Source: Nocardioides lacusdianchii (lineage in GTDB: Bacteria > Actinomycetota > Actinomycetes > Propionibacteriales > Nocardioidaceae). From it: a stretch of 64,000 bases of DNA. Position numbers and translations under genes: made by a program. The stretch covers positions 62,001 through 126,000 of the forward strand of contig NZ_JADHZD010000006.1 in NCBI RefSeq assembly GCF_020102855.1, read 5' to 3'. Shown here piece after piece: positions 14,516 through 36,765 of the stretch. Below the pieces are notes generated by a model. It was not told the DNA's origin. It did no database searches and saw only the letters and a program-made list of their open reading frames with translations. The stretch's first letter is position 1, and every line of letters begins with the position of its first letter.

Positions 14516-14528
14516 CGTGAGTCTCACG
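14516..14528. promoter_or_regulatory. 13-bp palindrome upstream of the leuB leader
   Basis: CGTGAG-T-CTCACG is a perfect palindrome in the divergent region between the methyltransferase gene and the leuB leader ORF, 63 bases before the leader start. It could be an operator for either direction. It does not clearly match the dyad upstream of leuC. Confidence 0.35.
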
Positions 14529-14591
14529 ATCTGACACATTCCCGGAAAACGGATGCGCGCGTCCGCTGGGCGGTCGTACAGTCGTCCCACC

Positions 14592-14636
14592 ATGCGGAGC
14601 GTCTTCGTACTTATCGTTCGCCGCGGCGGGGCCTGA
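14592..14636 (+). CDS. Branched-chain leader peptide upstream of leuB (14 residues)
   Basis: The ORF reads MRSVFVLIVRRGGA and stops. Codons 4-9 are GTC TTC GTA CTT ATC GTT, that is V F V L I V. They include GTA, CTT and GTT, which are scarce in this GC-rich genome. Dense valine, leucine and isoleucine codons in a tiny ORF ahead of leuB are the hallmark of ribosome-mediated attenuation, known for ilv and leu genes in actinobacteria. A -10-like TACAGT (14577-14582) lies nine bases upstream and there is no ribosome binding site, so a near-leaderless start is likely. Downstream sequence can form mutually exclusive stems. Low charged Val/Leu/Ile tRNA would stall the ribosome here. Confidence 0.7.
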   Translation: MRSVFVLIVRRGGA

Positions 14637-14733
14637 CAGAAGGCCACCTCGTCGCGGTGTTCGGCGTTGACGAGGTTCCGCCGCCCGGCCTTCTTCGACT
14701 CAGTCGAGCTCGAAGCCGCCGCCTCTGCGGCGG
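14630..14733 (+). promoter_or_regulatory. Candidate attenuator between the leader ORF and leuB
   Basis: A short stem GGCCT/AGGCC (14630-14634 with 14641-14645) covers the leader stop codon. It competes with a longer structure in which GAAGGCC (14639-14645) pairs with GGCCTTC (14687-14693), enclosing ACCTCGTC/GACGAGGT (14646-14653 with 14669-14676). A 7-bp hairpin with CTCT loop follows (14716-14722 with 14727-14733) but has no T-run. Mutual exclusion of the first two stems is visible; which state terminates is not clear. Confidence 0.5.
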
Positions 14734-14865
14734 GTCCGCCAGTCACGCGTGATCCGCCCTCCTGCCGGCCGGCAGCCGGGTGTCCGGGCGATCCCCGCAC
14801 TCCCGCTCCCTCACCCGCCGCGGTGTCGGTGGCTTCGGGCTCACGACCTTCCAGGAGTGAGACCC

Positions 14866-15006
14866 ATGTACGACCTGTATCCCGACGCTTGGGGCCCGGC
14901 GGCCCACGACCCCGAGAACCCGCGCAGCCTCGAGAACACCGCGGCCGCGCTGCAGACCGCGCTTGACCTGCGAGACAACGGCGGCATGCGCCCGGACGAC
15001 AACTAA
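14866..15006 (+). CDS. Small conserved-looking protein (46 residues) ahead of leuB
   Basis: This ORF begins [20 protein letters not shown] and is acidic and hydrophilic, with no membrane segment or cysteine. AGGAG (14853-14857) lies eight bases before the ATG, a better ribosome binding site than most genes here have, and leuB begins ten bases after its stop. Both points support real translation in the leuB transcript. It is not rich in branched-chain residues, so it is not itself an attenuator leader. Its function is unknown; a small protein or a translational coupler for leuB are both possible. Confidence 0.6.
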
Positions 15007-15016
15007 CGTTCGCCGC

Positions 15017-16108
15017 ATGCCAGACACCCCGCAGACCGTGTCCGACACCGACAGCCCCCGGAGCCAGACCCTCGCCGTCATCCCCGGCGACGGGATCGGC
15101 CCGGAGGTGACCGCCGAGGCCCTCAAGGTCCTCGAGGCGGCCTCCCCGGTGACGTTCGAGTCCACGCGCTACGACCTCGGCGCGGAGCGCTACCTCGCCA
15201 CCGGCGAGGTGCTGCCCGACTCGGTGCTCGCGGAGATCCGCGAGCACGACGCGATCCTGCTGGGAGCCGTCGGCGGCAAGCCCAACGACCCGAACCTGCC
15301 TCCCGGCATCCTCGAGCGCGGGCTGCTGCTCAAGCTGCGCTTCGAGCTCGACCACTACGTCAACCTCCGCCCGTCGCGGCTCTACCCCGGCTCGGCCTCA
15401 CCCCTGGCCGACTCCGTCCTTGAGCGCGGCGAGATCGACTTCGTCGTCGTGCGCGAGGGCACCGAGGGCCCCTACACGGGCAACGGCGGTGCCCTGCGCG
15501 TCGGCACCCCGGCCGAGATCGCCACCGAGGTCTCGGTCAACACGGCGTACGGCGTCGAGCGGGTCGTCCGCGACGCCTTCGCCCGCGCCGAGAAGCGGCC
15601 GCGCAAGAAGGTTACCCTGGTCCACAAGACCAACGTGCTCACCAACGCCGGCTCGCTGTGGTGGCGCCTGTTCCAGTCGGTCGCCGCGGAGCACCCCGAC
15701 GTGACGACCGACTACATCCACATCGACGCGGCCATGATCTTCATGGTCACCGACCCCGCCCGCTTCGACGTGATCGTCACCGACAACCTCTTCGGCGACA
15801 TCGTCACCGACCTCGCCGCCGCCATCACCGGTGGCATCGGGCTGGCCGCCTCCGGCAACGTCAACCCCGACCGGACCGCGCCGTCGATGTTCGAGCCCGT
15901 CCACGGATCCGCCCCCGACATCGCCGGGCAGCAGAAGGCCGATCCCACCGCCGCGATCCTCTCCGGCGCGCTGCTGCTCGACCACCTCGGCCACCCCGAG
16001 GCCGCGGCGCGGATCGAGACCGCCGTGCTTGCCGACCTCTCCGAGCGCACGCCCGGCACCACCCGGCGTACGAGCGAGGTCGGGGACGCCATCGCCGCCC
16101 GAATCTAG
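15017..16108 (+). CDS. leuB: 3-isopropylmalate dehydrogenase
   Basis: NAD-dependent oxidative decarboxylase that makes 2-oxoisocaproate from 3-isopropylmalate, the third dedicated leucine step. The protein is 363 residues. It starts with a short polar tail, then [19 protein letters not shown]. Substrate-binding arginines and the catalytic Tyr/Lys are in the expected segments (LLKLRFELD and [26 protein letters not shown]). The metal-binding and signature region is [20 protein letters not shown], and the cofactor region is [13 protein letters not shown]. Start: ATG 15017. It follows a leader ORF, a possible attenuator and a 46-residue ORF, and is followed by a dispersed repeat and ilvE in the same direction. 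Confidence 0.96.
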
Positions 16109-16180: not shown

Positions 16181-17254
16181 ATGCAGATCAGCACCACCGC
16201 GACCACCACGCCCGTCGACGACGCCCGCCTGGCCGAGATCCTGGCCAGCCCGGGCTTCGGCCAGCACTTCACCGATCACATGCTCACTTATGTGTGGACG
16301 CCGGAGCAGGGATGGCACGACGCGCGCATCACGCCCTACGGCCCCCTGACGCTGGACCCCGCGACCGCGGTGCTGCACTACGCGCAGGAGACCTTCGAGG
16401 GCATGAAGGCCTACCGCCACGACGACGGCTCGGTCTGGACCTTCCGTCCCGAGCAGAACGCCGCGCGGATGGTGCGGTCCTCGCAGCGCCTGGCCTTCCC
16501 CGAGCTGCCGGTAGACGACTTCGTGGAGTGCGTCGACGCGCTCGTGGCGGCCGACCAGCGGTGGGTGCCGGGCAGCGAGGGCGAGAAGTCGCTCTACCTG
16601 CGGCCCTTCATGTTCGCCTCCGAGACCTTCCTCGGGGTGCGCCCCGCGCAGCACGTGACCTTCATGGTCATCGCCTCGCCCGCTGGCGCCTACTTCAAGG
16701 GCGGCGTCAAGCCGGTCAACCTCTGGCTCTCGGAGACCTACACGCGTGCGGGTCGCGGCGGCATGGGCGCGGCCAAGACCGGTGGCAACTACGCCGCGTC
16801 GCTGGCCGCGCAGCGCGAGGCCATCGAGCAGGGCTGCGACCAGGTGGTGTTCCTCGACGACCAGGAGTTCCGCTACATCGAGGAGCTCGGCGGGATGAAC
16901 CTCTTCTTCGTCCACGCCGACGGTCACATCGTCACCCCGGAGACCGGCACGATCCTCGAGGGCATCACCCGCGCCTCGATCATCGAGCTCGCAGGCAAGC
17001 TCGGCCACGCGGTGGAGGAGCGGAAGTTCTCCCTCGACGAGTGGCGCGACGGGGTCGCCTCGGGCGAGATCACCGAGGTCTTCGCGTGCGGCACCGCCGC
17101 CGTCGTGACCCCGGTCGGTGAGCTCCGCTCGCCGCAGGGCGTGACCCCCGCGCCGGCCAGCACCGAGCTGACGATGCGGATCCGCGAGGCGCTGGTGGGG
17201 ATGCAGTTCGGCCGCGCCGAGGACACCTTCGGCTGGATGCACCGGGTGGTCTGA
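16181..17254 (+). CDS. ilvE: Branched-chain-amino-acid aminotransferase
   Basis: PLP-dependent fold-type IV aminotransferase that makes valine, leucine and isoleucine from their 2-oxo acids, with glutamate as donor. The protein is 357 residues, the normal length for the class II bacterial form. Family motifs are visible: ETFEGMKAYRHDDGSVWTFR, GAAKTGGNYAASLAAQREA (Lys is the PLP anchor), FLDDQEFRYIEELGGMNLFF and TILEGITRASIIELA. The start is ATG 16181: TAGGTT (16168-16173) is seven bases upstream and there is no ribosome binding site, matching the leaderless pattern. Transcription thus appears separate from leuB. Confidence 0.96.
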   Translation: MQISTTATTTPVDDARLAEILASPGFGQHFTDHMLTYVWTPEQGWHDARITPYGPLTLDPATAVLHYAQETFEGMKAYRHDDGSVWTFRPEQNAARMVRSSQRLAFPELPVDDFVECVDALVAADQRWVPGSEGEKSLYLRPFMFASETFLGVRPAQHVTFMVIASPAGAYFKGGVKPVNLWLSETYTRAGRGGMGAAKTGGNYAASLAAQREAIEQGCDQVVFLDDQEFRYIEELGGMNLFFVHADGHIVTPETGTILEGITRASIIELAGKLGHAVEERKFSLDEWRDGVASGEITEVFACGTAAVVTPVGELRSPQGVTPAPASTELTMRIREALVGMQFGRAEDTFGWMHRVV

Positions 17255-36531: not shown

Positions 36532-36603
36532 TGGGGTATGGTGTAATTGGCAACACGGCTGGTTCTGGTCCAGTTGTTCTAGGTTCGAGTCCTAGTACCC
36601 CAG
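36532..36603 (+). tRNA. tRNA-Gln (CTG anticodon)
   Basis: Folds fully: 7-bp acceptor TGGGGTA/TACCCCA, D stem GTGT/ACAC, anticodon stem GCTGG/CCAGT with loop TTCTGGT (anticodon CTG), T stem CTAGG/CCTAG with loop TTCGAGT, and discriminator G. CCA is not encoded. Length 72 bases. No GlnRS gene is visible here; charging through GltX plus GatCAB is the usual actinobacterial route. Confidence 0.95.
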
Positions 36604-36689: not shown

Positions 36690-36765
36690 GCCCCCGTCGT
36701 CTAGCGGCCTAGGACGTCGCCCTCTCACGGCGGTAACGCCGGTTCAAATCCGGTCGGGGGTACCA
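36690..36765 (+). tRNA. tRNA-Glu (CTC anticodon)
   Basis: Acceptor GCCCCCG/CGGGGGT, D arm GTCT...AGGAC, anticodon stem TCGCC/GGCGG with loop CTCTCAC (anticodon CTC), and T stem GCCGG/CCGGT with loop TTCAAAT. CCA is encoded at 36763-36765, unlike the tRNA-Gln gene. Length 76 bases with CCA. It is followed at once by a strong terminator hairpin. Confidence 0.95.

Follow-up and report, generated by a model that had tools for sequence, protein, structure and literature searches.

A putative ribosome-operated leader with Val, Leu and Ile codons upstream of leuB in Nocardioides lacusdianchii

What does a 14-codon open reading frame rich in branched-chain codons do upstream of leuB? The question is raised by a 64,000-nt stretch of Nocardioides lacusdianchii DNA (contig NZ_JADHZD010000006.1, positions 62,001 to 126,000; hereafter the window), for which a first-pass annotation had proposed a branched-chain leader peptide and mutually exclusive stems around its stop codon, read as an attenuator. 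We examined the codons, the predicted RNA fold and the relatives of this leader.

The upstream ORF and its setting

The genes and signals that frame the leader are the following.

14521..14537, + strand: upstream box GTCTCACGATCTGACAC, a candidate operator about 50-70 nt 5′ of the transcription start, marked by conservation
14577..14582, + strand: -10 hexamer TACAGT, 9 nt 5′ of the uORF start, with a predicted transcription start near 14589
14592..14636, + strand: upstream ORF (uORF) MRSVFVLIVRRGGA, 14 codons, with the putative sensor codons GTA CTT ATC as codons 6-8
15017..16108, + strand: leuB, 3-isopropylmalate dehydrogenase (ORF and protein family search)
16181..17254, + strand: an ORF 3′ of leuB that, by sequence likeness, is probably ilvE, the branched-chain aminotransferase

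The uORF reads ATG CGG AGC GTC TTC GTA CTT ATC GTT CGC CGC GGC GGG GCC TGA. Codons 4-9 all specify Val, Leu, Ile or Phe, a property unique among the window's 108 ATG-initiated ORFs of 10-20 codons (47 on the plus strand, 61 on the minus strand). The run had been said to include rare codons, and it does: GTA accounts for 1.8% of Val codons and CTT for 1.1% of Leu codons in seven host genes, whereas the leuB uORFs use GTA for 62 of 112 Val codons and CTT for 35 of 82 Leu codons, although these counts come from related sequences and are therefore not independent events. Val, Leu and Ile all occur within codons 3-10 in 59 of 61 leuB uORFs and in none of 41 leuA or leuC uORFs, all 41 of which have Leu codons. 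The proposed multivalent sensing thus stands for these three residues, which form the conserved triplet; Phe, which had been counted among them, is not conserved. The order of the codons differs by lineage, being VLI in most of the genus, LLVI at two loci (L024 and L031), V-R-I-L in f94 and VLVLI in f92, as expected of codon sensing. By this comparison, the conserved part of the uORF is its predicted sensor codons. A short putative leader ORF with regulatory codons, such as classical attenuators have, is present here, as judged from the codon evidence.

Because TACAGT ends 9 nt 5′ of the uORF, transcription probably starts at about 14589, and the uORF would therefore be nearly leaderless. A TANNNT hexamer is found 7-10 nt 5′ of the start in 61 of 61 leuB uORFs and in no case in a control window, which makes the start originally placed near 14589 likely. 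Farther upstream, the box GTCTCACGATCTGACAC is near-invariant among close relatives in the alignment and occurs once in the window.

The comparison of leuB upstream regions that had been suggested as a check reveals a conserved ORF in relatives, to an extent that chance would not produce. The 203 bases around the uORF match 87 of 149 family genomes, and the uORF is present at all 60 loci first examined (53 distinct). Half of these loci (30) were retrieved with the LeuB protein and the other 30 through DNA similarity, so that the uORF played no part in choosing the former. Model R1, a covariance model built on leuB leaders only, matches 19 of 20 genus genomes picked from the less similar part of the LeuB ranking, with a readable uORF in 18. 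It also matches 62 of 80 LeuB loci in a named collection: 62 of the 65 labelled Nocardioidaceae or unresolved, and none of the 15 others, including seven from Kribbella. The closest named LeuB relatives belong to Nocardioides species. Among 30 chosen genomes of the order, R1 matches 10, comprising six of six from other genera of the same family, two of five from family f3 and two of seven from f4; none of 12 f2 genomes has a match. Searching outward from the small ORF described below yielded 54 leuB-region loci, in which R1 matches 20 of 31 distinct leaders outside f6 (18 with a readable uORF) and none of 20 distinct f6, or Streptomyces-type, leaders. Judged by these matches, the uORF 5′ of leuB is a feature conserved across Nocardioidaceae and shared by some members of several other actinomycete families. 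Two matched leaders (L218 and L220) have S1/S2-like pairing and a degenerate uORF that lacks the Val-Leu-Ile run; they are perhaps decayed or rewired.

Conservation is not confined to the segment first annotated, which ended at 14733. The conserved RNA extends to about 14842 and is followed by a conserved small ORF (sORF). In the literature searched, mostly outside subscription papers, we found no leader described before leuB in Actinobacteria. Leader peptides in this phylum are reported for leuA, leuS and ilvB in the available text of PMC1262725 and PMC8079986, and for leuA also in the accessible parts of PMC4046766 and PMC5784534.

A pseudoknot where the uORF ends

Downstream of the sensor codons, the predicted pairing elements are:

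14619..14631, + strand: helix S1, 5′ arm, at the end of the uORF (covariation)
14647..14659, + strand: helix S1, 3′ arm (covariation)
14638..14645, + strand: helix S2, 5′ arm, inside the loop of S1 (cognate versus non-cognate pairing)
14687..14694, + strand: helix S2, 3′ arm (cognate versus non-cognate pairing)
14630..14645, + strand: small hairpin around the stop codon, 14630-14634 with 14641-14645 (pairs checked)

The original description had the stop codon in a small stem, one half of which is also needed for a longer downstream stem. This exclusion is borne out, as the 3′ half of the small hairpin (14641-14645) is shared with S2. The hairpin does not compete with the outer S1, however, and the main predicted fold is of another kind. 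Because S2 uses the loop of S1, the two helices need not exclude each other; on the pairing evidence, S1 and S2 form an H-type pseudoknot whose loop 1 contains the uORF stop codon.

Several comparisons support this fold. The leader folds more stably than shuffled sequences (z -2.84 and -3.71). The letters of S2 vary often while pairing is kept, such that a leader's own loop and downstream strands pair better than swapped ones. For leuB this preference reaches z 12.9 with 61 loops and z 11.7 with the 46 distinct ones, exceeding the maximum of 5000 permutations, and for leuA and leuC it reaches z 4.8 with 34 elements; the test omits L177 and eight of 42 leuA/leuC elements in which S1 was mis-called or short, and the permutation nulls ignore kinship among sequences. 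In S1, double-sided changes fill 22 cells in leuB leaders compared to 6.8 in shuffles, and 52 compared to 13.6 in leuA/leuC leaders, with the caveat that alignment A2, used for S1 covariation, contains five antisense or spurious rows among its 67. Alignment A1 of the nearest relatives, taken alone, has no double-sided change in S1.

Do these elements make a classical transcription attenuator, in which a stall favours an antiterminator and finished translation gives a terminator before leuB, as in ilvB leaders? The branched-chain uORF and the mutually exclusive small stem and S2 would fit such a device, and a similar uORF with a U-tract terminator has been proposed to work in this way at ilvB1 of M. 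tuberculosis, according to the available text of PMC13236596. However, the only terminator-like match that our search for intrinsic terminators returned, at 14593-14609, lies inside the uORF, with none after the pseudoknot or after the second domain described below, and conserved structure in the leader extends far beyond S2, to about 14842. We therefore consider this explanation unlikely, and the terminator/antiterminator pair implied by the earlier attenuator reading is unsupported.

Domain 2, the small ORF and the proposed output

The remainder of the leader contains a second predicted RNA domain and the sORF.

14706..14721, + strand: domain 2 closing helix P1, 5′ arm (z 7.6, 41 leaders)
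14827..14842, + strand: domain 2 closing helix P1, 3′ arm (pairing test, alignment fold)
14747..14757, + strand: domain 2 hairpin P2, GCG[TGATC]CGC
14785..14797, + strand: domain 2 hairpin P3, CGGG[CGATC]CCCG
14853..14857, + strand: Shine-Dalgarno AGGAG of the sORF (sequence)
14866..15006, + strand: sORF, 46 aa, ending in RPDDN and stopping 10 nt before leuB (conservation)

P1 pairing gives z 7.6, higher than in any of 3000 permutations, on 41 leaders longer than 150 nt drawn from the 48 with an sORF found by pattern among 62 leuB elements. The same long leaders carry 68 hairpins with a YGAYC loop, at least one in 39 of 41; the background is 0.135 in a shuffled leader and 0.146 on an antisense strand. 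Both the P1 test and this count are free of preselection for the hairpin or P1. RNAalifold recovers P1, P2 and P3 unaided, and P1 and P3 together have double-sided changes in 38 cells compared to 10.5 in shuffles, both from a selected alignment of 26 out of 31 sequences that had been preselected for the hairpin and at least eight P1 pairs, so that the percentage paired is inflated. We dropped kissing between YGAUC loops by reasoning, as YGACC variants would break the pairing. Four of the 20 Streptomyces-type leuB leaders (L230, L232, L235 and L249) carry a YGAYC hairpin whose stem has four or more pairs, although the uORF and pseudoknot are missing from them.

The sORF is conserved in 51 of 53 relatives, and its profile matches 86 of 296 class genomes from several actinomycete families. 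Its core motif is RDNGG, and the Nocardioides versions end in RPDDN; searches of Pfam and NCBIfam with the sORF gave no match. Domain 2, undescribed so far, and the sORF are further conserved parts of the leader.

Could domain 2 itself be the main sensor, as a ligand- or protein-binding RNA that the pseudoknot only modulates? Its excess of YGAYC hairpins and the covariation of P1 and P3 are in its favour, as is the finding that a domain 2 model has matches in 18 of 39 relatives, two in G017 and a single one in each of the others, placed by coordinates in the leuB leader region. On the other hand, domain 2 is missing from short leaders (for example L142, L178 and L182) that retain the uORF and pseudoknot, and no known RNA family matches: an Rfam search returned nothing of relevance with either the gathering cut-off or looser ones, the only matches above the gathering score in the window being two tRNAs, and no family exceeded the gathering score in leaders L120, L131 and L132. 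The two tRNA genes lie at 36532-36603 and 36690-36762. We regard domain 2 as the main sensor as improbable.

Still less probable, in our view, is that the uORF and pseudoknot form a constitutive landing pad or RNA-stability element, with regulation coming from an NdgR-type promoter and domain 2. NdgR binds 5′ of leuB itself in S. coelicolor, according to the accessible text of PMC4340878, the box at 14521-14537 is conserved, and domain 2 is predicted to form whatever the state of the ribosome. Yet this account leaves the conserved Val, Leu and Ile codons, their changing order and the rare codons unexplained. As for the contrast first drawn with a leuCD that has an NdgR-type site, the NdgR motif is not enriched in the window (24 matches with at most two mismatches compared to 17.3 expected), and a crude search with four peptide motifs found no leuC or leuD there. 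One chance-level match to the NdgR motif overlaps the uORF start. Finally, the stretch also shows strong conservation at the DNA level, as it would if the ORF had arisen by chance on top of a conserved promoter or DNA element. That reading is extremely improbable, however, given that S1 and S2 show compensatory changes, that conservation is seen at the level of codons and that the homologous copy before leuA has different codons.

We instead favour, with reasonable confidence, the view that the leuB-ilvE leader, a homologue of the one before leuA, uses the translating ribosome to sense charged Val-, Leu- and Ile-tRNA. The near-leaderless uORF would be translated while the RNA emerges, with its rare Val-Leu-Ile codons just 5′ of the S1 5′ arm and its stop codon in loop 1. 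When all three tRNAs are charged, the ribosome would reach the stop codon, cover S1 and S2 and leave, after which the S1/S2 pseudoknot or the small hairpin could form. A shortage of any of the three would stall the ribosome on codons 6-8, blocking S1 and leaving the S2 strand free, and the changed fold would raise expression of sORF-leuB-ilvE. For the output we prefer, over an intrinsic terminator, control at two points: translation of sORF-leuB and the access of Rho to the leader, which is C-rich. Since ilvE serves all three branched-chain amino acids, sensing of Val, Leu and Ile fits an operon with ilvE as its second gene.

Folding with ribosome occlusion, a check named at the outset, agrees with this model in part. 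Computed without pseudoknots, S2 is likely only with the A site at codon 8 (0.37) or codon 9 (0.65) and is absent with the ribosome at the stop codon; stalls at codons 6-7 do not produce it. The sORF Shine-Dalgarno hardly changes, remaining 0.22-0.31 unpaired in all states, and P1 forms at 0.67-0.96 in every state. Judged from the fold of the window itself and from leaders L178 and L185, the S2 3′ arm might pair with the sORF Shine-Dalgarno, but such pairing is unsupported over 43 leaders (z 1.2, 646 of 5000). Because the Shine-Dalgarno hardly changes and no terminator was found, the output step is the weakest-supported part of the proposed mechanism. The sensing half is well supported by sequence comparison, and we infer the output, as we do stalling and its direction. 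Two further observations are counted against the sensing model: the element is missing from f6 leuB leaders, f2 and Kribbella, and replacing codons in the S. coelicolor ilvB leader, which has a similar uORF, was without effect (as cited in the available text of PMC1262725).

Relation to the LEU element and other leaders

The E. coli ilvGMEDA leader, a classical terminator/antiterminator system, likewise has a single peptide that reads Val, Leu and Ile. It differs from the leuB leader in RNA fold, and the sequences are unrelated. Closer at hand are the actinobacterial ilvB leader peptides, such as MRTRILVLGKRVG (PMC8079986, from its accessible part) and that of M. tuberculosis ilvB1, in which GUA is a regulatory codon (PMC13236596, in its available text). 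As far as these texts go, the ilvB uORFs are also leaderless or near-leaderless with several branched-chain codons. Compared by their described features, they have a U-tract terminator, whereas the leuB leader has a predicted pseudoknot and no terminator.

The nearest relatives precede leuA. Although built on leuB leaders only, R1 finds two places in this genome, the leuB leader and C48:165954-166038, 5′ of leuA, with uORF MMRTLLLGCRSEA. In a draw from the phylum, R1 matches 45 of 396 genomes; 29 loci were read, 24 before leuA, one before leuB, two before a leuC-like start and two before neither, and the leuA-preceding loci have Leu-run uORFs where readable. At L098 and L105 (position 1501, family f11), read by eye, a leader with a Leu-run uORF lies 5′ of a leuC-like gene. 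One group of R1 leuA leaders, of the Streptomyces type, has the uORF MRFGLLLLSCRGEGL, which is the sequence of LeuL1, a peptide that precedes leuA in S. lividans (PMC8079986, from its accessible part). In the 2005 description by Seliverstov (PMC1262725, in its available text), the LEU element 5′ of leuA comprises a Leu-codon uORF, a pseudoknot, and Leu codons paired with the Shine-Dalgarno box. Because the leuB-built model finds leuA leaders, including that with the LeuL1 uORF, the leuB leader is, by model matches, a homologue of the leuA LEU element.

A LEU-type leader thus appears to have been retuned from Leu to Val, Leu and Ile before leuB. This suggests that a pseudoknot leader may be copied to another operon and respecified by a few codon changes, and it extends to leuB a leader family that, as far as the literature searched shows, is in print only for leuA. 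Sensor codons pair preferentially with their own Shine-Dalgarno in leuA leaders (z 3.0, 2 of 3000) but show no such preference in leuB leaders (z -2.2, 2971 of 3000). Since the two copies share a fold and differ in this pairing, comparing them could separate sensing from output. More tentatively, it is possible that the leuB leader has two modules. The first would be a codon-reading pseudoknot that exchanged its sensor codons between Leu-only and Val+Leu+Ile after a leuA-leuB duplication and does without the codon/Shine-Dalgarno pairing on which leuA relies. The second would be the undescribed domain with tandem YGAYC hairpins, which would bind a ligand or protein of its own and drive the conserved small protein coupled to leuB-ilvE.

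Set beside the LEU element, the leuB leader has a near-leaderless uORF with a similar C-terminal R-G/S/D-E/G motif (compared to the accessible parts of PMC1262725 and PMC8079986) and a predicted H-type pseudoknot at the uORF end, where one covariance model detects both leaders and the 2005 fold was compared by text. It differs in preceding sORF-leuB-ilvE rather than leuA; in its single Leu codon, flanked by Val and Ile, where the LEU element has a Leu run; in sensor codons that lack Shine-Dalgarno pairing; in having no base stem; and in carrying domain 2 and the sORF in addition. Because it departs from the LEU element in place, Leu run and base stem, we describe the leuB leader as a homologous variant of the LEU element rather than as a member.
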